Shown here: piece by piece, positions 21,053 through 54,736 of the stretch
Layout: each line of letters begins with the position of its first letter
How positions within the stretch are numbered: the stretch's first letter is position 1
NCBI GenBank assembly: GCA_003021105.1
Contig: PXRG01000008.1
Location: 1-64,000, forward strand
DNA length: 64,000 nucleotides
Reading direction: 5' to 3'
Origin: Halobacteriales archaeon QS_1_68_17
GTDB lineage: Archaea > Halobacteriota > Halobacteria > Halobacteriales > Haloarculaceae
Notes under the pieces: model-generated
Databases searched by the model: none
The model's input: the letters and a program-made list of their open reading frames with translations, nothing else
What the model was told of the DNA's origin: nothing
Program-made: the position numbers and the translations under genes

Positions 21053-22147
21053 CTAGTTCAGCCGCGGTGCGTTCTCGTCGTGCCCATCGAAGAGGTGCAA
21101 CTGCGAGGGGTCGAAGACGAGGTACCCCTCCTGGCCGAACGAGAGAGCGCCCGCGGGCACGACCCCGGTGATCTCGGTGCCGCCGGCCGTCCGGCAGCGG
21201 ACGATGTCCTCGGTCCCGATCTTCTCGATGACGTTGACCGAGACGGGGACCGCCAGCGAATCCGCGGGCCGTTCGTCGGCCCAGGAGAGGTGTTGCGGGC
21301 GGATACACAGCGTCACTGCCTCGCCGGTCGCGCCGTCGAGCACGTCGGCGGCGTCGGCGGGCAGTTCCAGTTCGAGTTCGCCGTCGGTGAGCGTCCGGTC
21401 CCCGGCGATCCGGCAGTCGAACCGGTTGATCTGTGGCGAGCCGATGAACGTGGCGACGAACAGCCGCGCCGGTTCGTTGAAGACGGTGTCGGGATCGCCC
21501 ATCTGTGCGATCTCGCCGTCGTTCATCACGACGAGCCGGTCGCCCATCGTCATCGCCTCCTCCTGGTCGTGGGTGACGTGGACCATCGTGATCCCGAGGT
21601 CCTTCTGGATGCGGACGACCTCGGCCCTGAGCTGTCGCTTGAGCAGTTCGTCGAGGTCGCTGAACGGCTCGTCCATCAGGAAGACCTCGGGTTTCCGGAC
21701 TAGCGCGCGCGCGAGCGCGACCCGCTGGCGCTGGCCGCCCGAGAGGTCGACGACCTTCTTGTCGAGGAACTCCTCGCAGTTGGTCGCGCGCGCGACCTCC
21801 TCGACGCTCTCGCGGACGGTCGTCTCGGGTTGCTGGCCGTCGGCGTGGAGCGGGAACGCGACGTTCTCCGCGGCGGTCATGTGGGGGTACAGCGCGAGGT
21901 CCTGGAACACCATGCTGATGTCCCGGTCCTGCGGTGCCCGGTCGGTCACGTCGGTGTCGCCGAAGTGGATCGACCCGCTCGTGGGCGTCTCCAGCCCCGC
22001 GATCGAGCGGAGCGTCGTCGTCTTGCCACAGCCGCTCGGACCGACCAGCACCACCAGTTCCCCGTCGTCGATGTCGATCGAGATGTCGTTCGTCGCGACG
22101 ATCGAACCGTACTCCTTCGTCAGATTGTCGATTGTGACTTCTGCCAT
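21053..22147 (-). CDS. Sugar ABC transporter ATP-binding protein (MalK/UgpC type)
   Basis: Walker A GPSGCGKTT, LSGGQRQR, Walker B VFLMDEP, C-terminal TOBE. Confidence 0.93.
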   Translation of the reverse strand: MAEVTIDNLTKEYGSIVATNDISIDIDDGELVVLVGPSGCGKTTTLRSIAGLETPTSGSIHFGDTDVTDRAPQDRDISMVFQDLALYPHMTAAENVAFPLHADGQQPETTVRESVEEVARATNCEEFLDKKVVDLSGGQRQRVALARALVRKPEVFLMDEPFSDLDELLKRQLRAEVVRIQKDLGITMVHVTHDQEEAMTMGDRLVVMNDGEIAQMGDPDTVFNEPARLFVATFIGSPQINRFDCRIAGDRTLTDGELELELPADAADVLDGATGEAVTLCIRPQHLSWADERPADSLAVPVSVNVIEKIGTEDIVRCRTAGGTEITGVVPAGALSFGQEGYLVFDPSQLHLFDGHDENAPRLN

Positions 22148-22150
22148 GTG

Positions 22151-22987
22151 TTACACCTCGGCCACGCCGAGAGTCATGCCCTCGATGATGTGTTTTCTGA
22201 ACGCGATCAGGATCAGCGTCGGTGGGATGGTGACGATCACCGCCATCGCCATGATCTGGTTCCAGAGGATCTGGTTGCTGAGGATCAGCGTCGGGATGAT
22301 CGTCGGATACGGGTTGACGTCGTTGCCCGTGACGATCAGCGCGAAGATGAACTCGTTCCAGGCGAACACCCACGACAGCATCGTCGTGGCGATCAAGCCC
22401 GGCCGCACCAGCGGGAAGACGACCTTCCGGAACGCCCGCAACGGCGAGTAGCCGTCGACGTAGGCCGCCTCCTCGAACGAGTAGGGGATCTTGTTGAAGA
22501 AGTCCCGCATCAGCCACGTCGTCAGCGGGAGGTTGAACGTCAGGTACAGGAGGATGAGCCCGATGTGGGTGTCCTGGAGGTTGAACCAGCCGAAGATGAA
22601 AAATATCGGGAGCACGACCGCGATGGGCGGGAACATCCGGGTCGACAGCAGCCAGAACGCGACGTCCTCGCCGCCGACGTCGTCGCCGTACCGGGAGAAG
22701 CCGTAGCCCGCCAGCGCACCCAGCAGCACCGACAGGACGGTCGTCCCCGACGCGATGATGAGGCTGTCGATGATCGAGCCGGTCGCCCGCGAGTTCGTCA
22801 GCACCCACGTGAACGCCTCCAGGCTGGGGTCCGTCGGGACGAACGTCGGCGGGAAGGTGTTGATCAGTTCCAGCGGTTTCAGCGCCGTGTTGATCGTCCA
22901 GTAGATCGGGAAGGCCGCGAAGACGGCGTAGATCAAAAGGAAAAGCTTCCCGAGCGCGGGCGTGAGCCGGGTGTCCGTGGTCGCCAT
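22151..22987 (-). CDS. Carbohydrate ABC transporter permease (MalG-like)
   Basis: EAAYVDGYSPLRAFRKVVFPLVRPGL EAA loop. Confidence 0.92.
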   Translation of the reverse strand: MATTDTRLTPALGKLFLLIYAVFAAFPIYWTINTALKPLELINTFPPTFVPTDPSLEAFTWVLTNSRATGSIIDSLIIASGTTVLSVLLGALAGYGFSRYGDDVGGEDVAFWLLSTRMFPPIAVVLPIFFIFGWFNLQDTHIGLILLYLTFNLPLTTWLMRDFFNKIPYSFEEAAYVDGYSPLRAFRKVVFPLVRPGLIATTMLSWVFAWNEFIFALIVTGNDVNPYPTIIPTLILSNQILWNQIMAMAVIVTIPPTLILIAFRKHIIEGMTLGVAEV

Positions 22988-22990
22988 CGG

Positions 22991-23884
22991 TCACACCTCC
23001 TCCACGGTCCGCATGTACCGCCAGAACAGCATCATGGTGATGATCGACCCGAGCCCGAGCACCCACGTCAGCGCGGCCGCCCGGCCGATGTTGAAGTTCT
23101 GGAAACCGACCAGGTACGTGAAGTAGGTCGGCAGCTCCGTCGTCGACCCCGGGCCGCCGTTGGTCATGACGAACAGCTTGTCGAAGAACTTGTAGGCGTC
23201 CATAAACCGAAGGATGGCGGCGACGATGATGAGATTCCGGAGCTGCGGGAGCGTGATCCGGCGGAACATCATCCAGCGGGAGGCCCCGTCGACCTGTGCG
23301 GCCTCGTAGAGGCTGTCGGAGAGGCTCGCCCGCCAGGTGTCCGCCACCATGATCGACGTGAGGCCGAGCCACCGGGAGCCGAGCCACGACGGCTGTGGCA
23401 GCCCGAGAATCCCGAGGAAGCCGTTGACGACGCCGCCGCCGGGCAGGAAGAGCAACTGCCACATCCGCCCGGCCACCAGCGGTGCGTACATCATCGGGAC
23501 GACGAACAGCGTCAGCAGGCCCACCCGGAGCGTCTGGTTCTCGACGTAGTTGTACAGCGCGAGCGCCAGCAGGGTCCCGAGCGCGACCTGGATGAACACG
23601 CCAACGCCGCCGTAGTACGCGAAGTTGACCACCGAGTGGATGAACCGGTCGTTGGTGAACAGCCACGCGAAGTTGTCGACGCCAGTGAACGTCGGCTCCT
23701 GGTAGGCGAGCGAGCCCGGCTTCCACCGGTTGAAACTCAGCCACAGCGACCAGAGCATCGGCCCGATCGTCACGAGGAAAACGGTGACGATGGTCGGCCC
23801 GACCAGCAGGTACGGTGCCAGCTCCCGGTCGGCGAGCCGGTCCCCGACCACCGGGAGCGAGATGTCCCATCGTGTCGTACTCAT
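22991..23884 (-). CDS. Carbohydrate ABC transporter permease (MalF-like)
   Basis: EAAQVDGASRWMMFRRITLPQLRNLI EAA loop. Confidence 0.92.
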   Translation of the reverse strand: MSTTRWDISLPVVGDRLADRELAPYLLVGPTIVTVFLVTIGPMLWSLWLSFNRWKPGSLAYQEPTFTGVDNFAWLFTNDRFIHSVVNFAYYGGVGVFIQVALGTLLALALYNYVENQTLRVGLLTLFVVPMMYAPLVAGRMWQLLFLPGGGVVNGFLGILGLPQPSWLGSRWLGLTSIMVADTWRASLSDSLYEAAQVDGASRWMMFRRITLPQLRNLIIVAAILRFMDAYKFFDKLFVMTNGGPGSTTELPTYFTYLVGFQNFNIGRAAALTWVLGLGSIITMMLFWRYMRTVEEV

Positions 23885-24028
23885 GTGCGGTATCCCTTTT
23901 CCGGAGAGAGCGGTTTATACATTGTGTTTGTGTCGCTATGCCACTGGGGAGAAGCGACGTATTCCGACCGACCGCCGGCCGGGAGGCGTTCGTCCCGGAG
24001 TCTCACACCCCGTTCGCGTCAGGAGCCG

Positions 24029-25723
24029 TCAGACGTAGTCCAGATCCCGTGCGGTCTGGAGGAACTGCTGGTAGGCCTGTTGCTGGGCGTCGCGGCCGAG
24101 TTCGTCGACCGTGTTCCGCCACTTCTCGGCTGCGTTGTCGAGGGCCTCCTGTGGCGACTCCTGGCCGGAGAGCGCCCGCTGGATGTGGATCGAGAGGTCC
24201 TCGATGTACTGGTTGGCACCGGGCCAGTTGGGCTGTGGGAACCCGTTTTCCATGTTCACCTGGCCCGCCTCGATGTGCTGTTTGGCCTGCTCGAACGCGC
24301 TCCGGCCTTCCGGGTACTCCTTGTCGGGCGCGAAGATCGGCACGTTCTTCGGGAACCCTTCGCCGGTCTCGCGGAGGGGGTTTTTCTCCGTGTAGGCCTC
24401 GGCGGCCTCGTCGGTGTAGTGTTGCTGGAGGAACGGGTCGAGCCCGGTGTAGGGATCGGCACAGGCGTTGACGCTGTAGTCCGGGTGCGAGATGCGCATG
24501 GCCGCGTAGAACGCGGCCTCCTTCCGGGCGTCGTCGAGCGACGCCGGGATCGAGTACAGCCGGTTGTACAGCATCATCGCGTTGCGCCGGACCGAGCCGT
24601 CGTCCTGTTCCCAGCCGGGGATGGCGGCCGCGCTCTGGTCGCCGACCACCGGGAAGTCACCACGGGCCGTGAACTCCGTGAGGTCGATCCACCAGACCGA
24701 CATCACGACGTTGCCCTGCTGCCACTGCTCGATCGTCTCGGCGACGCCGAGCTGGTCGGTGTTCGGGGGCGCGTAGTCGGTCGTCTCGACCATGTGCTCC
24801 AGGGCCGCGACCCCGTCCTCGGAGTTGATCTGTGGCTCCATGTTCTCGTCGAAGTAGATGACCCCGCGGGAGGCCGCGCGGTCCATCCACCACCCGAAGT
24901 TCCACGGGCGCGCACCGAAGACCTGCGTGCCGTAAACGCCGTCCTCGGTGTTCTCCGTGAAGTACTTCGCCACCTGGTTGAATTCGGGCCACGTCTGGGG
25001 CACCCTGAGTTCCTGTCCGTACTCGTCCTGGTACTGCTGCTGGTGTTGTTCGTCGTTGAAAAAGGACGGCCGGTAGAACAGGTTGTGGATGTCGCCGTCG
25101 ATGGGGAGCGCCACCGTGTCCCCGTTCCACTTCATGTAGAACTCGCGGTACGGCTCGATCACGCTGTTGACGTACTCGTCCATCCCCTCGTATTTGTCCA
25201 GGTACGGGTCGAGCGGTTCGAACAGTTGCCGGGCCTGGAAGTCCCCGAGGTACAGCGGCAACAGCAACGCGATGTCGTGGGGGAAGTCGCCGCCGCCGAC
25301 GAACTCCGAGTTCAGCGAGGAGTAGTAGTTGTCCGGCGGCAGGACCTTCCCCTCGTTGAACGAGACGCCACACTCCTCGCCGATCGCCGGCCCGAACATC
25401 GAGAACAGCGGACCGGCCGCGTTGTCGGTCGTCCACTGGAGTTCGATGTCCGAGAAGGCGTCGTCGTTGCGCGGCACCGGGATCTGCTCCCCGCCGCCAC
25501 CGTCGCCGCCGTCGCCACCGCCCCCGTCGCCTCCCCCGTCTCCGCCGTCTCCGCCGTCGCCACCGCCGCCGCTACAGCCAGCCAGCGCCGGCAGTCCGGC
25601 GGCGACCCCGGCCGCGCCGAAGTACTTGGCCCACTCGCGTCGTGTCATCCCGTACGGGAGCGTCGATTCGGACGGGCTACCCTCTTCGTGGGGAGGTGAG
25701 GTATCTTCTCCCATACCGCTCAC
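24029..25723 (-). CDS. ABC transporter sugar-binding protein (Tat lipoprotein)
   Basis: TRREWAKYFGAAGVAAGLPALAGCSGG; extracellular binding protein family 1-like; same operon as permeases. Confidence 0.9.
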   Translation of the reverse strand: MSGMGEDTSPPHEEGSPSESTLPYGMTRREWAKYFGAAGVAAGLPALAGCSGGGGDGGDGGDGGGDGGGGDGGDGGGGEQIPVPRNDDAFSDIELQWTTDNAAGPLFSMFGPAIGEECGVSFNEGKVLPPDNYYSSLNSEFVGGGDFPHDIALLLPLYLGDFQARQLFEPLDPYLDKYEGMDEYVNSVIEPYREFYMKWNGDTVALPIDGDIHNLFYRPSFFNDEQHQQQYQDEYGQELRVPQTWPEFNQVAKYFTENTEDGVYGTQVFGARPWNFGWWMDRAASRGVIYFDENMEPQINSEDGVAALEHMVETTDYAPPNTDQLGVAETIEQWQQGNVVMSVWWIDLTEFTARGDFPVVGDQSAAAIPGWEQDDGSVRRNAMMLYNRLYSIPASLDDARKEAAFYAAMRISHPDYSVNACADPYTGLDPFLQQHYTDEAAEAYTEKNPLRETGEGFPKNVPIFAPDKEYPEGRSAFEQAKQHIEAGQVNMENGFPQPNWPGANQYIEDLSIHIQRALSGQESPQEALDNAAEKWRNTVDELGRDAQQQAYQQFLQTARDLDYV

Positions 25724-25947: not shown

Positions 25948-26712
25948 ATGTCACAAGATCCGAAAAATCCGGTGTCGACGACGCGGAAGACGATCCGCAT
26001 CGTCGAAGCCCTCCAGGAACTCGGGCGGGCGCGGCTGACCGACATCGCCGACGAGATGGGAATGAGCAAGAGCACCGTCCACAGCCACCTGAGCACCCTC
26101 GAGGAGGGCGGGTTCGTCGTCAAGGAGGACAAGGAGTACCGGCTCGGGTTGCGATTTCTGGAGCTGGGCGGGTTCACGCGGAGCCGGATGGACCTCTACA
26201 AGACGGCGGAACCCGAACTCGGCCGGCTGGCCGCCGAGACGGGCGAACTGGTCAACCTGATGACCGAGGAGTACGGCCGCGGCATCTACCTCTACCGGGC
26301 GAAGGGGGAGCGGGCCGTCGGCCTCAACACGTACGCGGGCTACCGAACGCCGCTCCACACGACCGCGCTCGGGAAGGCGATCATAGCACACCTCCCGCGC
26401 GAGCGGGTTTCGGAGATCGTCGACAGGCACGGCCTCGAATCCCGGACGGCCGAGACGGTGACCGACAGGGAGAAGCTGTTCGACAGGCTCGACGAGATCC
26501 GCTCCCGCGGGTTCGCGCTCGACGACGAGGAGTACATCAGCGGTGTCCGGTGTGTCGCCGCCCCCGTCCTCGACACCGACGACCGGGCGATCGGCTCGAT
26601 CAGCGTCTCCGCGCCGACCAGCCGCCTCTCCAGCGAGAAGTTCGAGGAGGAGGTCCCGAACCTGGTCCGGAGTACGGCCAACGTGATCGAACTCAACATC
26701 AACTACTCCTAG
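25948..26712 (+). CDS. IclR family transcriptional regulator (IclR-1)
   Basis: TIRIVEALQELGRARLTDIADEMGMSKSTVHSHLSTLEEGGFV wHTH plus IclR effector domain. Confidence 0.94.
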   Translation: MSQDPKNPVSTTRKTIRIVEALQELGRARLTDIADEMGMSKSTVHSHLSTLEEGGFVVKEDKEYRLGLRFLELGGFTRSRMDLYKTAEPELGRLAAETGELVNLMTEEYGRGIYLYRAKGERAVGLNTYAGYRTPLHTTALGKAIIAHLPRERVSEIVDRHGLESRTAETVTDREKLFDRLDEIRSRGFALDDEEYISGVRCVAAPVLDTDDRAIGSISVSAPTSRLSSEKFEEEVPNLVRSTANVIELNINYS

Positions 26713-26899: not shown

Positions 26900-27901
26900 T
26901 CACCCGCGACGGTGCCGGGCGATGCGGGCGGCGGTCGCAACGGCGTCGATCATGCTCCGTTCCGAGGCGACCCCGTCGCCGGCGATATCGAAGGCGGTAC
27001 CGTGGTCGACGCTCGTCCGGACGATGGGGAGTCCGACGGTGACGTTGACGCCGCTGACGGCCGCGTCCCGGGCGAAGCCGAGCATCTTGATCGGGATGTG
27101 GCCCTGGTCGTGGTACATCGCAACGACGCAGTCGTAGTCGCCGCCCGCGGCCGCCGCGAACACCGTGTCCGGCGACGCCGGGCCGTGGACGTCGAGCCCA
27201 TCGGCCCTGGCGGCCTCGACGGCCGGTTCGATCTCGCGGGCCTCGGTCTCCCCGAGGAGGCCGCCGTCGCTGGCGTGTGGGTTCAGCCCGGCGACGGCGA
27301 TGCGGGGGTCGTCGACGCCCAGTTCGGCGAGCGCGTCCGCGGTCACTTCGACGGTCGACCGCACGCGGTCGGCGGTGACGTACTCGCAGGCCGCCGGCAG
27401 GGAGACGTGGGTGCTGACGTGCGTGACCCGGAGGTCGTCCTCGATCAACATCATCGCGTAGTCGTCGGTCCCGGTCCGGTCGGCCAGGAGGCCGGTGTGG
27501 CCGGCGTGGGTGCTCCCGGCGAGCCGCGTGGCCTGTTTGTTGATCGGGGCCGTGACGATCCCGTCGATCGAGCCCTCGACGGCCAGGTCGACGGCCCGCT
27601 CGACGTACTCGAGGCTCGCGCGCCCGTACTCCTCGCGCAACTCTCCGAAGGCGAGGTCGTCGACGTTGTCGAGGTCGAGGACGTCGATCGTTCCGGGGGC
27701 GAACGACGCCGCCGACACCGACGAGACCGGCCGGACCGCCAGCGAACTGTCACACAGGGCGATAGCCTCCCTGATGACGTCGGCGTCGCCCACGACCACG
27801 AGGTCGGCGTGGTCCCTGGCCGCCGCGAACGCCTTGACGATCACCTCGCTGCCGATGCCTGCCGGGTCACCCATGGTGAGCCCGAGTATCGGGTCATCCA
27901 T
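26900..27901 (-). CDS. PdxA-family 4-phospho-hydroxyacid dehydrogenase (PdxA2-like)
   Basis: LGLTMGDPAGIGSEVIVKAF, APINKQATRLAGSTHAGHTGLLADRTG, MYHDQGHIPIKMLGF; adjacent to DUF1537 kinase. Confidence 0.9.
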   Translation of the reverse strand: MDDPILGLTMGDPAGIGSEVIVKAFAAARDHADLVVVGDADVIREAIALCDSSLAVRPVSSVSAASFAPGTIDVLDLDNVDDLAFGELREEYGRASLEYVERAVDLAVEGSIDGIVTAPINKQATRLAGSTHAGHTGLLADRTGTDDYAMMLIEDDLRVTHVSTHVSLPAACEYVTADRVRSTVEVTADALAELGVDDPRIAVAGLNPHASDGGLLGETEAREIEPAVEAARADGLDVHGPASPDTVFAAAAGGDYDCVVAMYHDQGHIPIKMLGFARDAAVSGVNVTVGLPIVRTSVDHGTAFDIAGDGVASERSMIDAVATAARIARHRRG

Positions 27902-29153
27902 CGCTCGACAGATGGGCGAGCGCCGATATGACTGTTGTGCTCTCGCCGAACCCGCCGGCCTTGGTGACGACCGGGATGCCGTCGAAGGTCCCGCCGTCGA
28001 CCACCCCCACCGGGACCCCGGCGGCGACCGCGTCGCCGGTGAGTTCGACCGCACCGGCTCCGCCGGCCGACAGGACCGCCGCGGCGACCGCGCCGCCGGT
28101 CAGCACGAGGCCGTCGACGCGCGATTCCGCCCGGACCAGCAGGGCCGTCCGCGCCAGCGCCGCCGCGATCCGGTCGCCCGCGGTCGCCCGCGAGACGCCC
28201 GCCTCCCTGGCGGCCGCCGTCGCGGCCTCGACGGCCGACGCGTCGGGGACGGACGTGACGACGGCCGGCTCGTCGGCCCGGAGGCGCTCGATCGCCGCCG
28301 GGGCGGTCCGCTCCGCGGCCGTCTCGGGATCGCGGACCGCCGCCGCCACCGGGAGCGCGACGACCGCCTCGTCCGGGACGGCGTCGACCTGGGCGCGCGT
28401 CTCCGCCGCGGTGCTTCCGGCGACCGCGAGCACCCGCGGGCCGGCCGCCGACCACGACGCGGGACCGCGCGCGGCGTCCGGGAGCGGCACGTGCGGGGCG
28501 AGGCCGCCGCTGCCGACGAACAGCACGTCCCCGCGGCCGTCGACGGCCCCCGCGGCGGCTTCGAGGTGGCTGTCGTGGATCGCGTCACAGACCGCCAGTC
28601 CCGGCCCGTCTGCCTCGTCCGGCAGGGCCCGGGCGACGGCGGCCGGTCCGCGGGCGACCCGGTCGATCCCGACCCGCTCGACGGCGGCCGTCGAGTCCGC
28701 GAACACCTCGTCGAGTCGCCACGAGGACGGCCGGGCCGCCGCCCCGTCGTCGAGCCAGTCGGTCACCGGCCGGCCGTCGACGAGGTGGGTCCCGCAGGCG
28801 GTCGCCCGGCCGGTCGCGGGAAAGGCCGGCGCGACCACCGCGAGGGTCGCCCCGGCGGCCGCCATCGCGGCGTCCGTCTCGGCGACGACGTTGCCCCGGA
28901 GCGTCGAGTCGACCTTCTTGTAGACGGTCGCCGCGTTCCGGCGCTCGACGGCGGCGCGCACGCGCGCGACCGCCTCGTCGGCCGCGGCCTCGCGGCTGTC
29001 CGTGTCCACGACCACCACGCCGCCGGGCGAGGGGTCGTCGTCGGCTAGCGGGACGACGACCCGCCGTCCCCGGACGGCGAACGCGTGTCCCGTGTCGAGC
29101 GCGCCGGTGAGGTCGTCGGCGACGACCAGGCCGTCCCAGGGCGACCCGGTCAT
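27894..29153 (-). CDS. Four-carbon acid sugar kinase family protein (DUF1537)
   Basis: VVADDLTGALDTGHAFAVRG, YKKVDSTLRGNV, overlaps pdxA start by a few nt. Confidence 0.9.
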   Translation of the reverse strand: MTGSPWDGLVVADDLTGALDTGHAFAVRGRRVVVPLADDDPSPGGVVVVDTDSREAAADEAVARVRAAVERRNAATVYKKVDSTLRGNVVAETDAAMAAAGATLAVVAPAFPATGRATACGTHLVDGRPVTDWLDDGAAARPSSWRLDEVFADSTAAVERVGIDRVARGPAAVARALPDEADGPGLAVCDAIHDSHLEAAAGAVDGRGDVLFVGSGGLAPHVPLPDAARGPASWSAAGPRVLAVAGSTAAETRAQVDAVPDEAVVALPVAAAVRDPETAAERTAPAAIERLRADEPAVVTSVPDASAVEAATAAAREAGVSRATAGDRIAAALARTALLVRAESRVDGLVLTGGAVAAAVLSAGGAGAVELTGDAVAAGVPVGVVDGGTFDGIPVVTKAGGFGESTTVISALAHLSSDG

Positions 29154-29240
29154 CGGGACGCCCCGCCCGAACGCGAACCGGCCCCTCGCCGCCGGCCGGC
29201 ACGGACCGGGGGCCGACGAGGGCGGACGGGGGCGGACACG

Positions 29241-29951
29241 TCAGAGGAACGCGAGCGCACGGACCGACGCTCCGCTCGTGTCCTGGTAGTTCAGCGGCAG
29301 GTAGAGGAAGTAGGCCCGGCGGGTGTCGGCCCCGTCGAGTACCGTCCCGAGGTTCCGGAGTTCCTCGATGGGGATGATGTCGTTTTCCAGCAGCGGGAGG
29401 TGGGACTCGTCGGGCATGTCCTCGGTCGTCGCGGGGCCGTGGACGGGGGCCTCGTCGACCCACCCGCCGACCGACGCGCCGTCGGTGCCGACCGCCTTCG
29501 GCTCCAGGCCCGCCAGGTACTCGGCCGCGTCGCCGGTCAGGTACGGGAACTCGAAGAGATACTCCGGCGTCCGGCCGTGGTACTGGTCCCACCCGGTGTG
29601 GAGCATGACGACGTCGCCGGCCTCGATGTCGTCCTCGAAGGCGGCCAGTTCGTCGACCGTGATCGCGGCCTCGGGCTCCTTGGGCGCCAGGTCGAGCACC
29701 ACGCCCTCTCCCATGAACTTCTCGATAGGGAACTCGTCTAGGGTCTTTCCCTCCGGGATGAAATGCAGCGGCGAGTCGATGTGCGTGCCGGTGTGGGTCG
29801 ACATCTCGACCATCTCCATCGTGAACCCGTCGCGGGCAGCCCACGCGGACTGTTCGAGCGTGACCGACGGCAGCGTCGGCCAGACGGGGATGCTCTCGTC
29901 GATCGGGTTGCTGAGGTCGATGACCTCCTCGGGTGGTTCGAACATCGCCAC
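29241..29951 (-). CDS. Cyclase family protein (kynurenine formamidase-like metal hydrolase)
   Basis: IDLSNPIDESIPVWPTLPSV, STHTGTHIDSPLHF metal-binding motif. Confidence 0.9.
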   Translation of the reverse strand: MAMFEPPEEVIDLSNPIDESIPVWPTLPSVTLEQSAWAARDGFTMEMVEMSTHTGTHIDSPLHFIPEGKTLDEFPIEKFMGEGVVLDLAPKEPEAAITVDELAAFEDDIEAGDVVMLHTGWDQYHGRTPEYLFEFPYLTGDAAEYLAGLEPKAVGTDGASVGGWVDEAPVHGPATTEDMPDESHLPLLENDIIPIEELRNLGTVLDGADTRRAYFLYLPLNYQDTSGASVRALAFL

Positions 29952-30080
29952 CGAATTCTTCCCAGCCGATAAAAAAAGTTCCTCCGGACCGCGAGGCCGC
30001 CGTTCCGGTCACGGCGAGCGCGTCGCCGAACGACGGTCCGCCAGTCCAAAGGTATAAAGAGTTCGGCCGGGAGTCTTCCC

Positions 30081-30869
30081 ATGACCATGGGACGGCTCGA
30101 ACCGAACTTCGAGGACGAGACAGTGATCGTGACCGGGGCGGCGTCGGGGATCGGCCGCGAGGTCGCCCGCCGGTTCGGGGCGGCGGGCGCGACGGTGCTC
30201 GTCGCCGACATCGACAGGGAACCGAAGGACGGAGACGTCCCGACCCACGAACTCGTCGAAGAGGAGGGCGGCACCGGCGAGTACGTCCGGACCGACGTCA
30301 CCGAACCGGGGCAGATCGAGACGCTCGTCGAGGCGGGCCACGAGTACGGCGGCGTCGACGTGATGATCAACAACGCCGGGCTGATCATCCCGGGATCGTT
30401 GCTCGACCTCTCGCCGGAGGAGTTCGACCGGGTCCACGCCGTCAACGCCCGGGGCGTCTACTTCGGGACGCAGGCGGCCGCCAACGATATGATCGAGCGG
30501 GACGATCCCGGCTGTATCATCAACACCGCCTCGATCAGTTCCCACTACGCCCAGTACGACCAGGTGCAGTACGACTCCTCGAAGGGAGCCGTCAGAATGA
30601 TCACCCGCGGCTCCGCGCTCGAACTCTCGGACCACGGCATCCGCGTCAACGCGGTCGCGCCCGGCCAGATCGCCACCGAATTCGTCGAGGGGTGGTCCGA
30701 CGAGGCGACCGAGAAGGCCGCCAGCGACGACCTCGTGAAGCCGGTCCCGATAGGCCGGGCGGGCACGCCCGAGGACGTGGCGGGGGCCTACCTCTACCTC
30801 GCCAGCGAGGACGCCCGCTACGTGACCGGCGAACTGGTCTTCGTCGACGGCGGTTGGAGCGTCTTCTAG
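30081..30869 (+). CDS. SDR family oxidoreductase
   Basis: VTGAASGIGREVARRFG, NNAG, YDSSKGAVRMITRG, C-terminal FVDGGWSVF. Confidence 0.93.
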   Translation: MTMGRLEPNFEDETVIVTGAASGIGREVARRFGAAGATVLVADIDREPKDGDVPTHELVEEEGGTGEYVRTDVTEPGQIETLVEAGHEYGGVDVMINNAGLIIPGSLLDLSPEEFDRVHAVNARGVYFGTQAAANDMIERDDPGCIINTASISSHYAQYDQVQYDSSKGAVRMITRGSALELSDHGIRVNAVAPGQIATEFVEGWSDEATEKAASDDLVKPVPIGRAGTPEDVAGAYLYLASEDARYVTGELVFVDGGWSVF

Positions 30870-32335
30870 CCGCGGTCCGCGCCGCCGTCGTCGGCTGGCG
30901 TCGGCGGCGACCCCGTCGCCCGTTCCGGGTGTCGCCGCTCGACGAAGGTGCGGGCCTGGGATGGCGAGGCCCCGGCGATGCGGTACATCCGGCCGGGCCA
31001 CCGGGCGAGCGCGACCCTGATCGCGGCCACGACCGCCAGCCCCGCGAGCAGACCGACCGGCATCGGCAGGGCCAGCACGCCGTTGGCCGGCGACCCGGAG
31101 AGGCCGGTCGTCACGATGGTGTCCCCGCCGAGCGGCGCGCCAGCGTGCTGTCCGGCCCTGTCGACGAGCGGTGCGAGCCACGTGGCGACGTAGTGGACCG
31201 GCACGAGCAGGACCGTCCCCGACACGACCATCCTGACGACGTCGCGGTCGGCGATGGGGGCCATCATCGCGAAGAAGAACGGGAACGTCGCTAGGTCGAC
31301 CCCCCACAGCAGTTCGTTGCCCGGCAACAGGACCATCATCACGACCGCGATCGGGATCATCAGCAGGCCGGCGGCGGCGACGGCCTGGTCGCCGACCAGG
31401 ATCGCCGAGTCGAGACCGACCGCGAACTCCCGGTCGGGGAACCGGTCGGTCATGCGGTCGCGGACGGCCTCTGACAGCGGCGTCAGCCCCTCCATCAGGA
31501 TGCCCGCCACCTCCGGCAGGAGGTACATGACCATGGCGAACAGGACCCCGAGTTCGAGGATCCGGTACCAGCCGTCGAGCGTGCCGAGCGCGTCGGCGTA
31601 CGCGCCGACGCCGAGGCCGATCCCCACGGCAGCCCCGAGGGCGACCGGTTCGCCGAGCGCGCCGAGCCGCTCCTGGATCGTCTCGGGGTCGGCCCCCAGG
31701 TCGGCCACCGGCGTCCGCCGGACGAGGGCGTCGACCGGGAGCGCCGCGACGGCCATGACCGCCGAGAACCCGTGCGGGATCGAGATGTCGTCGACGTCGA
31801 ACGTCTCCTCGATGGCCGGCTGGGTCCAGTCGGCGACCACCAGCGAGAACGCCCCCAGTACGAGGCCGACCGCGAGCGCGTACGGCCAGTTGCCGGTCCG
31901 GACGTAGACCAGCCCCGCGATGAACGAGAAGTGCCAGTAGTTGTGGATGTCCACGTCGAGGGTGTGGGTAAAGCCGACCGCGAACAGCGCGAGGTTGACG
32001 ACGACGAAAATCGGGATCATCCAGAAGCCGATCTCGGCGATCCCGAACGCGATGGCCGCGGCGGTCGGCCAGCCCATGTCGACGGCCGGCAGCGCCAGCG
32101 GCGTCGTCGCCGTCAGCCGAACCGCGGCCGGGGCGATCCGGTCGGCGGCCAGCCCCAACACGAGGTAGATCGCGGCGAAGCCGACGCCGATGCGCAACCC
32201 CGACCCCGCCGCGTCCCTGGGGGGGATGCGGAACGCCAGCGCGATCAGGAAGACGATCACGGCCAGCAACACCGGCGCGGGCACCCCACCGAGCGCCCCG
32301 CCGAGGTCGCCGACGGGCGTTGTCTGCAGTTGCAT
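30866..32335 (-). CDS. PTS galactitol-family EIIC (GatC/SgcC)-like membrane transporter
   Basis: VDMGWPTAAAIAFG...WMIPIFVVVNLALFAVGFTHTLDVDIHNYWHFSFIAGLVYVRTGNW...ISIPHGFSAVMAVAALPVDALV aligns with GatC as remembered (VDVGWP.., VDIWNIWH, IPHGTSAY). Confidence 0.8.
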   Translation of the reverse strand: MQLQTTPVGDLGGALGGVPAPVLLAVIVFLIALAFRIPPRDAAGSGLRIGVGFAAIYLVLGLAADRIAPAAVRLTATTPLALPAVDMGWPTAAAIAFGIAEIGFWMIPIFVVVNLALFAVGFTHTLDVDIHNYWHFSFIAGLVYVRTGNWPYALAVGLVLGAFSLVVADWTQPAIEETFDVDDISIPHGFSAVMAVAALPVDALVRRTPVADLGADPETIQERLGALGEPVALGAAVGIGLGVGAYADALGTLDGWYRILELGVLFAMVMYLLPEVAGILMEGLTPLSEAVRDRMTDRFPDREFAVGLDSAILVGDQAVAAAGLLMIPIAVVMMVLLPGNELLWGVDLATFPFFFAMMAPIADRDVVRMVVSGTVLLVPVHYVATWLAPLVDRAGQHAGAPLGGDTIVTTGLSGSPANGVLALPMPVGLLAGLAVVAAIRVALARWPGRMYRIAGASPSQARTFVERRHPERATGSPPTPADDGGADRG

Positions 32336-32404
32336 CGTTCACACACCCCACGGGCGGACTACATAAGTGTCTCGGAGCGGGAACGTCCGCGGATCGCCGG
32401 CCGG

Positions 32405-32917
32405 CTACGTCGCGGGCGGCTCCTCCTCGGCCAGGTTGGCGTGCATGTGCTCGTAGCCCCGGGAGTGGACCTCGACGATGTTCCCCCAGGGGTCGGCGCA
32501 GTAGCACATCTTGTACTCGGGGTAGTCGGGGAAGATCACCCAGACGTCCGAGAGCTGGTCGCCGCCGGTCTCGACGACGGTCTCGACCAGGTCCTCGATG
32601 TTCGGGTCCTGCACGCAGAAGTGAAACAGGCCCGGCTGGGTCGGGGTGGGATCGGTGTCGCCCTCGGTGGCCTCGAACTCGAACAGTTCGAACCCGACGT
32701 GGTTGCCCGTCGCCATGTGGGCGATCTTCATCTCGCCGAAGTCGAAGCCGACGGCGTCCTGCGCGAGGTCGCCGAAGTGGCCGTCGCCGGCGACGACGGT
32801 GTCCGGCTCCATCACCGGCGTGAACCCCAGCACGTCGCGGTACCACTCGAAGGCGGCCTCGATGTCGTCGACCGTCAGGCCGATGTGCCCCAGCACGCGC
32901 GGATGTGCTTCGGTCAT
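32405..32917 (-). CDS. VOC family (glyoxalase/dioxygenase-like) protein
   Basis: HIGLTVDDIEAAFEWYRDVLGF, FHFCVQDPNIEDLVE, DPWGNIVEVHSRG. Confidence 0.88.
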   Translation of the reverse strand: MTEAHPRVLGHIGLTVDDIEAAFEWYRDVLGFTPVMEPDTVVAGDGHFGDLAQDAVGFDFGEMKIAHMATGNHVGFELFEFEATEGDTDPTPTQPGLFHFCVQDPNIEDLVETVVETGGDQLSDVWVIFPDYPEYKMCYCADPWGNIVEVHSRGYEHMHANLAEEEPPAT

Positions 32918-32990
32918 ACGGCGGAGCCATTGGACCGCCTCTGTAATAGGTATTCGGGGGTACGAGAGATTGCAGTGGCGGACGGCGAAC

Positions 32991-34325
32991 CTACAGCGTC
33001 CGGGAGAACTCGCCGTCGGCGTCGAACGCGAGCGGTTCGGGGTCGCCGACCGTCACCGTCGGGTCGTCCCGGAGGTCCTCGGCCACGGGTTCGGAGACGA
33101 GCAGTTCGTCCGGATCGAGCGTGTTCCGGATGCGGGCGATCCGGAGGTCGCCCGGGTGCTGCCGGCCGGTCGTCGAGGCCGCCATCAGGAGGGCGGCCTC
33201 GTCGGTGGGCACGACGAACGGCAGTTTCGCCCGGCCGGGTTCGCCGCTGGTCGCCACGTTGACGTAGGTGTCCGCGAGGTCGACCGCGCGCACGACCCGC
33301 TGGTGGACGAAGTCGGCCAGCCCCATCCCGAGCGCGTTGCCGTGCGAGCCCTCGGTCAGCGACCGGACGTAGATGCGGGTGATCGCCGGCTCGTCGGGAT
33401 CGGGCTGGCCGTGGAACCGGACCCGGCCGACGACGTTCGTGTCCATCCCGGTCCCGCTCACCTCCTTCCCGATCCCGTCGAGGACGAGCATGTCCAGGTC
33501 GGACACCGGGAGCGTGGCGAGCAGTTCCTTCGAGCGGGCGAGCAGTTCCGGCTCGCGGTCGAGGATCTCCTCGACGGGGACCCCCTCGACGATCGCCGCC
33601 CGCTCGTCGGCGTTCTCGACGATGGCGACCCCGCCGATCACCGGCGTCTCCGCGAAGAGGACCCGCGCCCGCTCGGGGATGACCGACTGGAAGCCGCGGG
33701 CCAGCGCGGCGTTGTGCATCGTCTCGGCCCCCCGGTGTTTGCCGAGGCCGACGACCGCCATCTTCGCCAGGCCGCTCTCGTAGTCGCCGTTGTAGTCGGT
33801 GTGTGCCTTCACCCGGTTGACCAGCACCACCGCGTCGGCGGCCAGCGCGTCCTCGGCGGCGTGGACGGGGCGGCCGTCGGCGTCGGTGCCGACCGTCTCG
33901 ACGGCCATCGACGACCGGATCGGACAGCCCAACCACTCCTCGGTGATCCCCAGCGACGCCAGCACCTCGGCCTGTCCCTCCGCGGTCGCACCGCCGTGGC
34001 TCCCCATCGCGGCCATGACGAACGGGTCCAGCCCCCGGTCCTGGAGCGCCGCGACCGTCGCCGAGAGCACCGCCGGCAGGTCGCGGATGCCGCGGCTCCC
34101 GGCCGTGATGGCGACCGACGCGCCCGGAGAGAGCGAATCGAGGTCCAGGTCGGCCAGCGCCGCCCGCGTCGCCGCGGCCACGTCGTCGATCGCCGGCTGG
34201 TCCCGGTGTTTGGTCGCCCGGGCGAACCGGGGGAGATCCCCCGTCTCGGCGTCGCTCCAGGCCGCGAAGCGCTCGGCCGTCGGGAACTGGAATGGGATCG
34301 GCTCCCCCGCGTTGTCGTCGGTCAT
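32991..34325 (-). CDS. LarA-like (lactate racemase domain/DUF2088) protein
   Basis: SVAITAGSRGIRDLPAVL, MGSHGGATAEGQAEVLASLGI; start placed at 34325. Confidence 0.75.
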   Translation of the reverse strand: MTDDNAGEPIPFQFPTAERFAAWSDAETGDLPRFARATKHRDQPAIDDVAAATRAALADLDLDSLSPGASVAITAGSRGIRDLPAVLSATVAALQDRGLDPFVMAAMGSHGGATAEGQAEVLASLGITEEWLGCPIRSSMAVETVGTDADGRPVHAAEDALAADAVVLVNRVKAHTDYNGDYESGLAKMAVVGLGKHRGAETMHNAALARGFQSVIPERARVLFAETPVIGGVAIVENADERAAIVEGVPVEEILDREPELLARSKELLATLPVSDLDMLVLDGIGKEVSGTGMDTNVVGRVRFHGQPDPDEPAITRIYVRSLTEGSHGNALGMGLADFVHQRVVRAVDLADTYVNVATSGEPGRAKLPFVVPTDEAALLMAASTTGRQHPGDLRIARIRNTLDPDELLVSEPVAEDLRDDPTVTVGDPEPLAFDADGEFSRTL

Positions 34326-34498
34326 GGCTGTCGGCGTACTGTCGCCCGTTCGCGGGCCCGCGACAAGAAAGTTCCTCCCGCGAGTCCCGCGGATGCTCCG
34401 GTGGCGCGAGTCCCGCGGATGCCGCGGATGCCCCGGCGGCGCGAACGGCGCGGTGCCCCTGGCGGCGCGGACGCCCCCAGGCCGGAAGCGCGAGCGCG

Positions 34499-35179
34499 TC
34501 ACCCAGGGACGGCCGCCGCGATCGCCTCCAGCAGCGACTCGCGGTCGTCGGCCAGCGAGACCGCCGAGGCCGCGCCAGTGGCATCGGCCCCCTGCTCGAA
34601 CGCCAGGCGGACGTCCTCGGGCGTGGAGATGCCCCCGCCGACGATCGCCTTCGTCCGCGGGTTCGTCTCCTCGACGGCCGCCACGAACGCCCGGACGCGG
34701 TCCGGGTGGGTCTGTGTGATCGCGCGGTCGGTCGAGATGTCGTCCGGTTTCTCGAAGATCAGGGCGTCCGGGTCGAACGCGGCCACGGCGCGCGCCGCCG
34801 CGACGGTGTCGACACACACCAGCGAGTCGATGCCCGCCGCCCGGCACCGCTCGATCTTCCGCTCGACGCCCGTGATCGTGTCGCGGGCCTCGGCGTGGTT
34901 GACGACGGCGCCCGCCGCGCCGGCGTCGGCCAGCGTCTCCGGGAGGGTCCGACCCATGCCGCGACCGGGTTCGACGGCGTCGACGCGCGGGGCCGTCACC
35001 GCGACGTCCGTCTCCCGGGCGACGAGGCGGACGTCCGGCAGCTGTGGGGTCACGACGAACGACGCGCCCGTCCGTTCCTGTACCTGTTCGACCGTCCGTG
35101 CGATGTCGACGCCCTGTGCGCCGAGCGTACCGGGGTAGACTTTGAAGTTGACCCCGAAGTGGGGGTACGGGACGTTCAT
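34499..35179 (-). CDS. Triosephosphate isomerase-family protein
   Basis: PHFGVNFKVYPGTLG, VNHAEAR, FEKPDDISTDRA, IVGGGISTPEDVRLAFEQGADATGAASA - archaeal TIM fold. Confidence 0.85.
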   Translation of the reverse strand: MNVPYPHFGVNFKVYPGTLGAQGVDIARTVEQVQERTGASFVVTPQLPDVRLVARETDVAVTAPRVDAVEPGRGMGRTLPETLADAGAAGAVVNHAEARDTITGVERKIERCRAAGIDSLVCVDTVAAARAVAAFDPDALIFEKPDDISTDRAITQTHPDRVRAFVAAVEETNPRTKAIVGGGISTPEDVRLAFEQGADATGAASAVSLADDRESLLEAIAAAVPG

Positions 35180-44790: not shown

Positions 44791-46269
44791 ATGTCAGATA
44801 AACGGCTACAGAGGCGTAAGTTCATCCAGTCGACAGGTGCCGCGGCGGGCATCGCCGCCATTGCCGGCTGTACCGGCGATGGTGGCGACGGTGGCAGCGG
44901 CGACGGTGGCGGCGGCGACGGTGGCGACGGTGGCGGCAGCACGAGCACGCCGCCGGGCGAGGACGTCGAACCCGCCGACAAGATCCAGTTCATCTCGGAG
45001 TCGACGCCGCCGAGCAAGGCGCTGAAGTCGATCATCAGCCGCTTTACCGACGAGACGGGCATCGAGGTGGAGTTCACGCTCACTCCGCTGCTCAACTACA
45101 CGGAGAAACTGGCGAACGACCTCACCAGCCAGGCGGGCAACTTCGACGCCGTCTACGTCGACCCGTACAACATCGGTGCCCCGTACTATCCGGATCTGGA
45201 ACCCCTCGACGCCTACATCGAGGACAACAACTACGACATGGACGACCACATCCAGATCCACATCGACGCGTGTTCGGTCTACGAAGAGGACGGGACGGTC
45301 AGGGGGCTCCCCTACGACTGTCCGACGATCACGCTGGCCTACCGCCAGGACGTCTTCGACGAGTACGGCGAGCAGGCCACGAGCGACCTCGGGTTCGAGG
45401 CCGAGCCCAACCCCGACATGACCTGGTCGCAGTACATGGAGGTCGCCAGGTGGATCAACGAGAACGTCCCAGACGACATGGTGGAGTACGGGACGGGGCA
45501 TATGGCCAAGCAGCACCAGTCGCTGGCCAACGAGTTCGAGATGATCCAGTGGGCCTTCGGCGGGACACAGCTCACGGGCTTCGACGGGAAGGACCCGATC
45601 CTGCCGGACGACATCTCGGCCGGATTCACCGACGACGCCTCCATCGAGGCGGCGGAATTCTACACCGAACTGGTCGGCGAAGTCGCCCACCCGGGCAGCA
45701 CGACCTGGAACTGGACGGGCGTCGCCCAGGCGTTCGCCAACGGCAAGATTGCCATGGCACCCGAGTGGCACGAGTTCAACGGCCTGTTTGCAGACACCGA
45801 GTCGAGCGTGGTCGCCGACAAGGTCAGCTGGACGCTGGCCCCGTCCGGTCCCGCCGAGAACCGGAACGTCCAGGCCCACTACGGCGGGAGTAGCATCGGC
45901 ATCAACGCCCACACCTCCGACGCCAAGAAGAAGGCCGCGTGGAAGTTCATCGAGTGGACCACCTCGCCGGACATCCAGTTCGAACTGCTGAAGGCCGCGG
46001 GCGGGACGCCGACCCGCCAGTCCGTCTACGACCGCAGCGAGGTCAAGGAGGCCAGCCAGGCCCAGACCGCCGAGAGCAAATACCCGAACGTCGTGCCGCC
46101 GGTGCTCGAAGCCTGGAAACAGGAGAACATCGGCCAGCGCCCCCACCACCCCGACTGGCTCCAGCTCGAGCAGGTCATCTACACCGAGGGCTCGAAGATG
46201 GTCAACGGCGACCAGTCGCCCGAAGCCACCATGCAGGCCTGCGCCGACGGCTTCAGCAGCATCCTGTAA
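44791..46269 (+). CDS. ABC transporter sugar-binding protein
   Basis: RRKFIQSTGAAAGIAAIAGCTG lipobox; family 1 extracellular binding protein. Confidence 0.92.
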   Translation: MSDKRLQRRKFIQSTGAAAGIAAIAGCTGDGGDGGSGDGGGGDGGDGGGSTSTPPGEDVEPADKIQFISESTPPSKALKSIISRFTDETGIEVEFTLTPLLNYTEKLANDLTSQAGNFDAVYVDPYNIGAPYYPDLEPLDAYIEDNNYDMDDHIQIHIDACSVYEEDGTVRGLPYDCPTITLAYRQDVFDEYGEQATSDLGFEAEPNPDMTWSQYMEVARWINENVPDDMVEYGTGHMAKQHQSLANEFEMIQWAFGGTQLTGFDGKDPILPDDISAGFTDDASIEAAEFYTELVGEVAHPGSTTWNWTGVAQAFANGKIAMAPEWHEFNGLFADTESSVVADKVSWTLAPSGPAENRNVQAHYGGSSIGINAHTSDAKKKAAWKFIEWTTSPDIQFELLKAAGGTPTRQSVYDRSEVKEASQAQTAESKYPNVVPPVLEAWKQENIGQRPHHPDWLQLEQVIYTEGSKMVNGDQSPEATMQACADGFSSIL

Positions 46270-46353
46270 CGGCGGGGTCCCGGCGGATCAAAACAGTCAA
46301 GACGGTCCTTTTTTATCCATTACGGTACACACTGGCAGGGAGAAACAAAAGCA

Positions 46354-47325
46354 ATGGTCGAACACCAACGCACGACGGAGGTCTCCGGCGTTTCGACCGA
46401 CGCGTACGTCGGCGAGGAGCCGGACGACACGGGGGAATCGATCCTGGAGTCGCTACCCATCTCCTTCGAGATGGTGCTGCTGGCACCCAGCATCATCACA
46501 CTGGCGATCCTGAGCATCATCCCGCTGGTGGTGATCATCTGGCTGTCGTTCATGGAGATCAACTTCACGCCGGTGAACGAACAGATCTTCGTCGGCCCCC
46601 AGAACTACGCCGACATGGTCAATAACGGCAACGTCTGGGACGCCTGGAAGGCCACGGTCGTCTACGTCGGCGGGTCGCTATCGCTTCAGCTCGGGCTCGG
46701 CATCCTCATCTCGGTGATGCTCCACCGGGTCATCGTGGGCGAGAACGTGTTCACGAGCATCGTCATCATGCCGATGATGATCGCGCCGGTGGTCGTGGGG
46801 TTGCTCTGGCAGTTCCTGCTCGATCCCACGTTCGGGCTGTATACGTACATGATGAACCAGATCGGACTGTTCATCAACCAGCCGATCCTGGGGGACCCGA
46901 ACAGTGCGATGGCGGCGCTGATCCTCATGGACACCTGGCAGTGGACGCCGCTGATCGTGCTGATCGTGCTGGCGCAGCTCAAGTCGATCCCGGAACACCT
47001 CTACGAGGCCGCGCGCGTGGACGGGGCGACCGGGTTCACCCAGTTCCGGTACGTGACGCTCCCGCTGTTGAAACCCGCCATCGCCATCGCCCTGCTGTTG
47101 CGGTCGATGGACCTGATGCGGTACTTCGCGAAGGTGTTCATCACGACGGGCGGCGGTCCGTCGAACACGACGAAGATCATCGGCCTCTACGTCTACGAGC
47201 AGGGCCTGCGCTTTTTCAACCTCGGCTACGGCTCCGCGGTCGGGCTGGTGATGCTCGTGGTCACGATCCTGATGGGACTTGCCTTCGTCGAGATGATCAT
47301 GGGAGGTGCCGGCGACAATGAGTAA
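46354..47325 (+). CDS. Carbohydrate ABC transporter permease (MalF-like)
   Basis: YEAARVDGATGFTQFRYVTLPLLKPAI. Confidence 0.93.
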   Translation: MVEHQRTTEVSGVSTDAYVGEEPDDTGESILESLPISFEMVLLAPSIITLAILSIIPLVVIIWLSFMEINFTPVNEQIFVGPQNYADMVNNGNVWDAWKATVVYVGGSLSLQLGLGILISVMLHRVIVGENVFTSIVIMPMMIAPVVVGLLWQFLLDPTFGLYTYMMNQIGLFINQPILGDPNSAMAALILMDTWQWTPLIVLIVLAQLKSIPEHLYEAARVDGATGFTQFRYVTLPLLKPAIAIALLLRSMDLMRYFAKVFITTGGGPSNTTKIIGLYVYEQGLRFFNLGYGSAVGLVMLVVTILMGLAFVEMIMGGAGDNE

Positions 47326-48169
47326 GGCGAACCAGTCGACCGCGTTGCCCAGGCCGATCAGGCGGTACGGCCCGCTGGCCGTGCTGGGCGTGTTCTCGCT
47401 GTGGACGCTCGTCCCGCTGTTCTGGATGTTCCTCTCGTCGCTGAAGATCCGGAAGAGCATGTTCGAGTTCCCGCCGACGATCATCTTCGACCCCACGTTG
47501 CGGTACTACCAGGACATGTTCCTGGGATCGAACCCGGTGACGCCGTTCCTGGCAAACAGCGTGATCGTCGCGCTGGGGACCGCCGTGCTCTCGGTCGGGC
47601 TGGGCACCGTCGGGGGCTACGGCCTCTCCCGGCTCGACCTCCGCGGGAAGAAACACCTCGCGTTCTGGATCATCAGCACCCGGATGGCCCCCATCGTCGT
47701 CGTCGTGATCCCGCTATTCTACGTCTACAAGACCGCGGGGCTGTTGAACACCCACGTCGGGCTCATCATCGCCCACACGACGTTCAACCTCCCCTTCGCC
47801 ATCTGGCTGATGCGCTCGTTCTTCGACGAGGTGCCCGTGTCACTGGAGGAGGCGGCGATGATCGACGGGGCGACGCGGTGGCAGGCCTTCCGAAAGGTGT
47901 CGCTCCCCCTGGTGTTGCCGGGGATGGGCGCGACCGCGATCATCGCCATCGTCTTCTCGTGGAACGACTTCATCTTCGCGTTGATCTTCACCAGCAACGC
48001 GACCCAGACGATGCCCGTCGCGGCGTCGCAACTGGTCACACAGACGGGGACGCTGTGGGGACAGGTGATGGCCACCGGGGTCGTGATCCTGCTCCCGATG
48101 GTGACCTTCGGCGTCATCGTCAAGAAGTACCTCGTCAGCGGCCTCACGATGGGGGCGGTCAAGGAATGA
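47318..48169 (+). CDS. Carbohydrate ABC transporter permease (MalG-like)
   Basis: EEAAMIDGATRWQAFRKVSLPLVLPGM; start 47318 overlaps previous stop. Confidence 0.93.
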   Translation: MSKANQSTALPRPIRRYGPLAVLGVFSLWTLVPLFWMFLSSLKIRKSMFEFPPTIIFDPTLRYYQDMFLGSNPVTPFLANSVIVALGTAVLSVGLGTVGGYGLSRLDLRGKKHLAFWIISTRMAPIVVVVIPLFYVYKTAGLLNTHVGLIIAHTTFNLPFAIWLMRSFFDEVPVSLEEAAMIDGATRWQAFRKVSLPLVLPGMGATAIIAIVFSWNDFIFALIFTSNATQTMPVAASQLVTQTGTLWGQVMATGVVILLPMVTFGVIVKKYLVSGLTMGAVKE

Positions 48170-48230
48170 CCGGCGCGACCGACGTGTCGGTGACCGACGA
48201 CAGTCGACAGGAGGGTTACAACGACTAACC

Positions 48231-49406
<1,176 letters not shown>

Positions 49407-49438
49407 AACGCATCCTTCTGCAGTCTCCTCCCGTCGGA

Positions 49439-49756
49439 TCAGCCGGCCGTGGATTCCTCGGATTCCCCGGATTTCTCCGAGTGCTCGGAGTCCTCGAACA
49501 GTTCGACCACGCCCGTGCCCGTGACGGTGACCGCGTAGCCGGCAAACCGGAAGGTGACGCGCAGGTCGTGGTCGGCCGATCGGTCGTCCGCCGCGACCAG
49601 TCCGTCCAGCGCGTCCGGATCGACGGCGCGGTACAGCGGCGGCAGCGCCATCGGGTCGGTCCCGGAGGCGCGCGAGACGGCGTTGACGACGGCCCCTACC
49701 GGGCTGTCCTGTTGCCAATCGTACGTCGACCGAAAGCGGGTGGAATGCGTTCCCAT
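49439..49756 (-). CDS. HalOD1 output domain-containing protein
   Basis: 105 aa; SPVGAVVNAVSRASGTDPMALPPLYRAVDPDALDGLV.. VTFRFAGYAVTVTGTGVVEL. Confidence 0.85.
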   Translation of the reverse strand: MGTHSTRFRSTYDWQQDSPVGAVVNAVSRASGTDPMALPPLYRAVDPDALDGLVAADDRSADHDLRVTFRFAGYAVTVTGTGVVELFEDSEHSEKSGESEESTAG

Positions 49757-49970
49757 CTGTCCAGTACCCGGTTTCCACAGGCACGTAGTTCAATCTGTGG
49801 GTTCGTCGCGGGACCGGCCCCGCCGGCGACCCCGCCAGTTCGGCCGGTCCCGCCGTCGCTGTCGGTCCCGCCCTTCTGCAGATCCCGCCGTCGCTGTCGG
49901 TGTGCCGGCCCCGCTCTCGCTGCCGGGCGGAGGCAAAGCTTCATTTGGGTGTGCCCGGTATCGGCTGTCG

Positions 49971-50993: not shown

Positions 50994-50999
50994 CCGCGC

Positions 51000-51725: not shown

Positions 51726-51807
51726 ATGTCGAGTACCCTACCCTACCGAACAGGCCCCCGCGTGTTAATGGTTTCCCGACCGGCAAAGTCGCAACTGCCG
51801 GGCGTCG

Positions 51808-52464: not shown

Positions 52465-52624
52465 TGTCGGGTACTCCTGACGTCGTGGTCGGAGTTGTCC
52501 CTCTTCTCGCAATCGACGCTAATCAATGTTCCCATGCGAGCGTGGGTACGGCCCGTGGCGAGCCGCGCGAGCGGCCGTTCGGGGCCGGCGATACGCATAA
52601 GCCCGTCGTGGGACATGAAGACGT

Positions 52625-53776: not shown

Positions 53777-53781
53777 CGTCT

Positions 53782-53798
53782 GTTTTGCGATACTGAAC
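53782..53798 (+). promoter_or_regulatory. Candidate IclR-2 operator GTTTTGCGATACTGAAC
   Basis: 34 bp upstream of IclR-2 ATG (53832). Confidence 0.5.
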
Positions 53799-53831
53799 AG
53801 ATTTATTGTCGACGAGCCCGGAAGGACACCC

Positions 53832-54587: not shown

Positions 54588-54594
54588 TCGTTCC

Positions 54595-54735: not shown

Positions 54736-54736
54736 G

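Follow-up and report, generated by a model that had tools for sequence, protein, structure and literature searches.

A haloarchaeal gene cluster predicted to degrade tetronates joins a DUF1537 kinase and a PdxA-type enzyme to a putative nickel-pincer C2-epimerase

We consider it moderately probable that a gene cluster in a haloarchaeon takes up and degrades tetronates, with a LarA homologue flipping the configuration at C2 and a DUF1537 kinase and a PdxA-type enzyme giving dihydroxyacetone phosphate (DHAP). The cluster occupies positions 26900-35179 of the stretch of DNA analysed (the window, 64,000 nucleotides), part of a haloarchaeal genome assembled to 60.8% completeness. In the proposed route, an importer would bring the four-carbon acid sugar (tetronate) into the cell, where the LarA-like enzyme, using the nickel-pincer nucleotide, would flip C2, with D-erythronate and D-threonate as the most likely pair of epimers. 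The kinase would then spend ATP to phosphorylate the preferred epimer at C4, and the PdxA-type enzyme would oxidise C3 with NAD(P), the 3-oxo acid losing CO2 to yield DHAP, which would enter central metabolism. More tentatively, an SDR oxidoreductase and a cyclase-family hydrolase may make the tetronate from a tetrose via a lactone, and a second triosephosphate isomerase, TIM2, may have a tetrulose phosphate as its substrate. All substrates and reactions in this scheme are predictions drawn from the identities of the genes, their catalytic residues, the conservation of the PdxA, DUF1537 and LarA trio, and the presence of larC in the genome.

Gene identities were obtained by reading the window and by scanning it with Pfam and NCBIfam models; the scans confirmed every gene named in a first-pass annotation of this DNA, which had overlooked one encoding a VOC-family protein. 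The span holds eight genes, all on the minus strand except that of the SDR. The PdxA2-like dehydrogenase/decarboxylase, predicted to convert tetronate-4-phosphate to DHAP (26900..27901, minus strand; ATG at 27901, 333 aa; PF04166, 345.6 bits), overlaps by 8 bp (27894-27901) the gene for the DUF1537 acid-sugar kinase, a predicted tetronate 4-kinase (27894..29153, minus strand) both of whose domains score above cut-off (PF07005, 145 bits; PF17042, 85 bits). Further along are a cyclase-family metal hydrolase, possibly a lactonase, with the motif HTGTHIDSPLHF in its translation (29241..29951, minus strand; PF04199, 127.6 bits); the SDR oxidoreductase, possibly an aldose or polyol dehydrogenase, with a YDSSK motif (30081..30869, plus strand; PF13561, 203.8 bits); an EIIC-GAT permease, a candidate for uptake (30866..32335, minus strand; PF03611, 213.9 bits; TIGR00827, 300 bits, below its cut-off of 542); the VOC-family protein (32405..32917, minus strand; PF00903, 49 bits; TIGR03645, 147 bits, below cut-off); the LarA homologue, a member of nickel-pincer isomerase group 22 and predicted tetronate C2-epimerase (32991..34325, minus strand); and TIM2, whose substrate is possibly another phospho-sugar (34499..35179, minus strand; PRK04302, 240 bits). 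Adjoining the span are a gene for an IclR-family regulator (25948..26712, plus strand; PF01614, 146.8 bits) and a four-gene ABC importer on the minus strand (21053-25723), made up of a substrate-binding protein (24029..25723; PF01547, 47.8 bits), two permeases (22991..23884 and 22151..22987) and an ATPase (21053..22147). The substrate-binding protein has copies 68-69% identical beside PdxA in two other haloarchaeal genomes (G032 and G050), which also hold copies of the permeases (68% and 68-70%, respectively) and of the ATPase (67-68%). Of the transporter and IclR genes that the first-pass annotation had assigned to the cluster, the EIIC-GAT permease is the transporter within the span and the IclR gene lies just outside it.

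The combination of PdxA and DUF1537 in this archaeon is not peculiar to it. DUF1537 was found in 49 of 300 haloarchaeal genomes, and comparison of 54 neighbourhoods of about 20 kb, plus the window, separated two types. Type a, to which the window kinase belongs, comprises 44 loci including the window and occurs in about 40 of the 300 genomes. PdxA is adjacent at 42 of the 44, so the pairing is not due to chance; in the two exceptions (G029 and G273) PdxA lies about 115 kb away. PdxA was present in all 26 type a genomes tested and in none of the four with type b only. The suggestion that the assembly might be new was accordingly overstated, since PdxA and DUF1537 are widespread in haloarchaea, including Haloferax volcanii, and together with LarA are also found in Bacillota. 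Other parts of the cluster recur as well: the ABC importer, IclR, cyclase and TIM2 genes surround PdxA/DUF1537 in both G032 and G050, with the SDR also present in G032, and DUF1537, LarA, VOC, TIM and SDR genes are together again in Halomicroarcula. At some haloarchaeal PdxA/DUF1537 loci LarA is absent nearby.

At 501 bits, the LarA homologue exceeds the cut-off of 400 set for NF052515, the model of group-22 nickel-pincer isomerases. Its residues H110, H175, K188 and H204 are invariant in 14 homologues of its clade, and their spacing (65/13/16) is like that of H108, H174, K184 and H200 in LarA. The roles of H108, H174 and H200 in LarA have been described (PMC12393405, PMC11851776). An AlphaFold model of the protein (mean pLDDT 83.7) matched LarA structures at E 4.6e-11, and all 18 Foldseek matches with E < 0.001 were of the LarA family; searches of the PDB by sequence for LarA relatives, with a single sequence and with a profile, returned chance matches only. 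The source genome encodes larC (contig C32). Across the 300 haloarchaeal genomes, larC is present in 130 of 132 bearing the group-22 LarA versus 123 of the 168 others, and this LarA is itself present in 38 of 40 type a genomes versus 132 of 300 overall, the Fisher tests on both co-occurrences ignoring shared ancestry. The protein shares with LarA and with the racemases and epimerases of 2-hydroxyacids that use the nickel-pincer cofactor (PMC7583248, PMC11770544) the fold, the two catalytic histidines, the cofactor lysine, the spacing of the nickel histidine and the larC gene in the genome, and differs from them in belonging to group 22 and in having a kinase and PdxA as gene neighbours.

We found no description of the activity of group-22 isomerases in the open-access literature searched. 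Other LarA homologues epimerise 4-deoxy-threonate and 4-deoxy-erythronate at C2 (PMC11770544), so the chemistry of a tetronate C2-epimerase has precedent. That the window protein is such an enzyme, acting on D-erythronate and D-threonate, is a prediction that we place between even odds and moderately likely; the epimerase would probably let the pathway accept both C2 configurations. The first-pass annotation had listed the LarA-like and TIM genes and had not drawn this consequence of the former, nor recognised the latter as a second, divergent copy.

The gene neighbourhoods of LarA point in the same direction. We built a tree from 65 group-22 sequences of haloarchaea and scored a locus as linked when LarA lay less than 9 kb from PdxA and/or DUF1537. 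The window protein falls in a clade of 25 (support 100/99), 24 of which are linked, a ratio that describes this sample because its unlinked loci were a chosen subset; the linked members span 10 genera in 6 families. A wider sample added four more unlinked members to the clade (quick tree), one of which, from Haloferax sulfurifontis, has DUF1537 about 19 kb away on the same contig. Some members of the clade, such as those from Halomarina, sit with enolase-superfamily genes instead. Separately, other haloarchaeal group-22 clades (represented by four loci and their relatives) also adjoin enolase-superfamily genes, which suggests that they are aldonate epimerases.

The same trio occurs in bacteria. 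When the genomes of 85,462 species were scanned, group-22 relatives turned up at no fewer than 80 loci, with many bacteria among the matches listed. Among these matches, LarA has DUF1537 and PdxA as direct neighbours or at a distance of a few kb in Oceanobacillus, Alkalihalobacillus, Bacillus, Neobacillus, Heyndrickxia, Fredinandcohnia, Brevibacillus and Domibacillus, and PdxA alone is beside LarA in two Actinomycetota and one Bacteroidota. In a quick tree the LarA proteins of these bacteria formed lineages apart from the haloarchaeal clade. The gene order in Heyndrickxia coagulans is larE, a PrpR-type activator, DUF1537, PdxA, LarA and a membrane protein with a weak resemblance to nickel permeases; larE is thus two genes from DUF1537, and larC lies about 3 kb from larE.

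We give roughly even odds to the reading that the haloarchaeal and Bacillota group-22 isomerases epimerise tetronates at C2, so that a single kinase and a single PdxA-type decarboxylase can serve both D-erythronate and D-threonate. The strongest competing explanation keeps the tetronate role of the kinase and PdxA and has LarA act on some other 2-hydroxy acid, either glycerate or a C5/C6 aldonate, as a neighbour brought in by the clustering of catabolic genes only. It draws on the association of other group-22 clades with enolase-superfamily dehydratases, on the members of the same clade that are without DUF1537, and on a gene near one trio with the name DUF4147, which presumably covers glycerate kinases. 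We judge it possible but rather unlikely, since distinct LarA lineages of haloarchaea and Bacillota show the linkage, often with the genes directly adjacent, and in its PdxA-only form it extends to Actinomycetota and Bacteroidota. LarA may serve other 2-hydroxy acids, given the clade members found with enolase-superfamily genes and the PdxA/DUF1537 loci that lack a nearby LarA. The linkage of the three genes could also stem from an upstream substrate that they have in common and that has more than four carbons.

A second alternative concerns the kinase and PdxA themselves: were the acid sugar broken down by the cluster larger or branched, the pair might handle a substrate that is not a simple tetronate. 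Both families include enzymes with other substrates (TphB, 4aty, for PdxA; the OiaK model for DUF1537), and the SDR, cyclase-family hydrolase and VOC protein are foreign to the minimal bacterial tetronate pathway. In addition, the kinase scored 227 bits against the D-threonate kinase equivalog model NF047819, short of its cut-off of 450, and a Bacillota kinase beside PdxA and LarA was also short (327 bits); for this reason the window kinase is not filed as DtnK. The scores for OiaK and TphB make this alternative improbable. The kinase obtained 107 bits with the model for 3-oxo-tetronate kinase (OtnK) and 30 bits with that for OiaK (cut-off 700), and its nearest DUF1537 structures were 4xfm/4xgj and 4xfr/4xg0 rather than 3dqq/1yzy. 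For PdxA, the best PDB scores were with 4jqp (292 bits), 6e85, a D-threonate-4-phosphate dehydrogenase (287), and 2hi1, PdxA2 (285), as against 185 for E. coli PdxA and 147 for TphB. The THV, NPHA, MYHDQG and DHGTA motifs, which we take to hold the metal-binding residues, are retained in the alignment. DUF1537 kinases are established in four-carbon acid sugar catabolism, in work cited in PMC7954711, which favours a pathway from a tetronate to DHAP over other readings, and a tetronate kinase plus PdxA function is likely for the pair on sequence grounds. The proposal that the two act as a kinase and an oxidative decarboxylase on a tetronate to give DHAP was thus upheld by the proximity of PdxA2-like structures, the nearer D-threonate kinase model and the absence of PdxJ. 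Making or salvaging vitamin B6, by phosphorylation and oxidation of 4-hydroxythreonine, is suggested by the database name of PdxA and by a report of DUF1537 phosphorylating 4-hydroxythreonine (PMC7954711), but is very improbable as it is already contradicted by the occurrence of PdxJ in 0 and PdxS in 14 of 15 genomes tested (the exception being the incomplete window genome), which rules out a DXP-dependent B6 role for PdxA.

Tetronate catabolism thus remains our preferred function, and it has bacterial counterparts. Zhang et al. reportedly described, in 2016, bacterial catabolism of D-threonate and D-erythronate by DUF1537 kinases (DtnK/DenK) and PdxA2. This system is cited in PMC7954711 and PMC12540250. 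The window resembles it in having a two-domain kinase and a PdxA2-type enzyme encoded side by side, with overlap, and in the predicted product, DHAP. It differs in being archaeal, in adding a group-22 isomerase, a second TIM, a cyclase-family hydrolase, an SDR and a VOC protein, and in a kinase that falls under the curated cut-off for the bacterial D-threonate kinase. The LtnD-OtnI-OtnK-OtnC route for L-threonate and D-erythronate (PMC10580937, PMC12540250) likewise has a DUF1537 kinase and ends in DHAP, but there the kinase works on a 3-oxo acid and the decarboxylase is of the class II aldolase type; the window cluster contains neither OtnI nor OtnC.

We found no description of archaeal tetronate catabolism in the literature searched, which was mostly open-access. 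If the epimerase proposal is right, both the activity and the route would be without description in the open-access literature searched, and the route would be, as far as our search shows, the first tetronate catabolism in archaea. It would also supply a function for one clade of a nickel-pincer isomerase group found in 132 of 300 haloarchaeal genomes, connect the catabolism of sugar acids with a rare nickel cofactor, and make catabolic enzymes of PdxA proteins whose genes databases label as belonging to vitamin B6 synthesis in organisms that lack this pathway.

TIM2 retains the catalytic Lys, His and Glu, with residues of loops 6 and 8 replaced. An ordinary triosephosphate isomerase function in using DHAP is not preferred, given these altered phosphate loops and a separate, canonical TIM elsewhere in the source genome (contig C12). 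TIM2 is present in 7 of 12 genomes, chosen for having DUF1537, and in each case DUF1537 is no more than about 15 kb away. FGGY kinase genes and a DeoC/LacD aldolase lie next to TIM2 at related loci, neighbours that suggest phospho-tetrulose or a similar compound as its substrate. Tetritol and erythrulose pathways have TIM-family isomerases (LerI/EryH), and two loci (L160 in Halomicroarcula, and L259), where FGGY kinase genes flank the divergent TIM paralogue, resemble that setting in gene context; unlike them, the window cluster has no FGGY gene. A module that combines TIM2 with an FGGY-family kinase, a DeoC/LacD aldolase and a small YjbQ-like protein recurs at six loci (L061, L062, L070, L074 and L256, in Haloferax-like genomes, and L259) and, with or without GatB/C/A, looks like a phospho-sugar pathway. 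Copies of the cyclase (65-69% identical) lie near PdxA/DUF1537 in five genomes (G032, G050, G104, G267 and G295), and copies of the SDR (62-78% identical) also occur at PdxA/DUF1537 loci, the two recurring jointly in all of these five but G050. A VOC copy (76% identical) lies between LarA and TIM2 in Halomicroarcula.

Among the genes of the cluster there is no IIA or IIB beside the EIIC-GAT permease, and a PTS function for it was rejected on this ground. A GntP permease lies near the PdxA/DUF1537/LarA trio in several haloarchaea, and IclR homologues are beside PdxA at many haloarchaeal loci. At Haloferax-like loci TIM2 is followed by genes judged from their sequences to be GatB-, GatC- and GatA-like. 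Elsewhere in the source genome (contig C31, 74001-90000), GatA-, GatB- and GatC-like genes, with a gene for HPr close by, make up a haloarchaeal PTS of the galactitol type; when this set was scored with models, IIA and IIB fell below the curated cut-offs.

The window holds a second PdxA gene (49971-50993, plus strand) in another catabolic cluster (44791-55759) without DUF1537, accompanied by ABC importer, SDR, IclR and alcohol dehydrogenase genes, a galactonate dehydratase (PRK14017, 546 bits) and a class II aldolase resembling L-fuculose/ribulose-1-phosphate aldolases, below cut-offs. In this PdxA another residue takes the place of the lysine that normally follows MYHDQGH (HIATNVHG), so its substrate may differ. 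Finally, at the 11 type b loci DUF1537 lies beside a RuBisCO-like protein in seven (PF00016, 250.6 bits at L046) and with a class II aldolase in others; some of the loci with a RuBisCO-like protein adjoin genes that look like TRAP transporters, and the pairing presumably resembles known bacterial apionate pathways.
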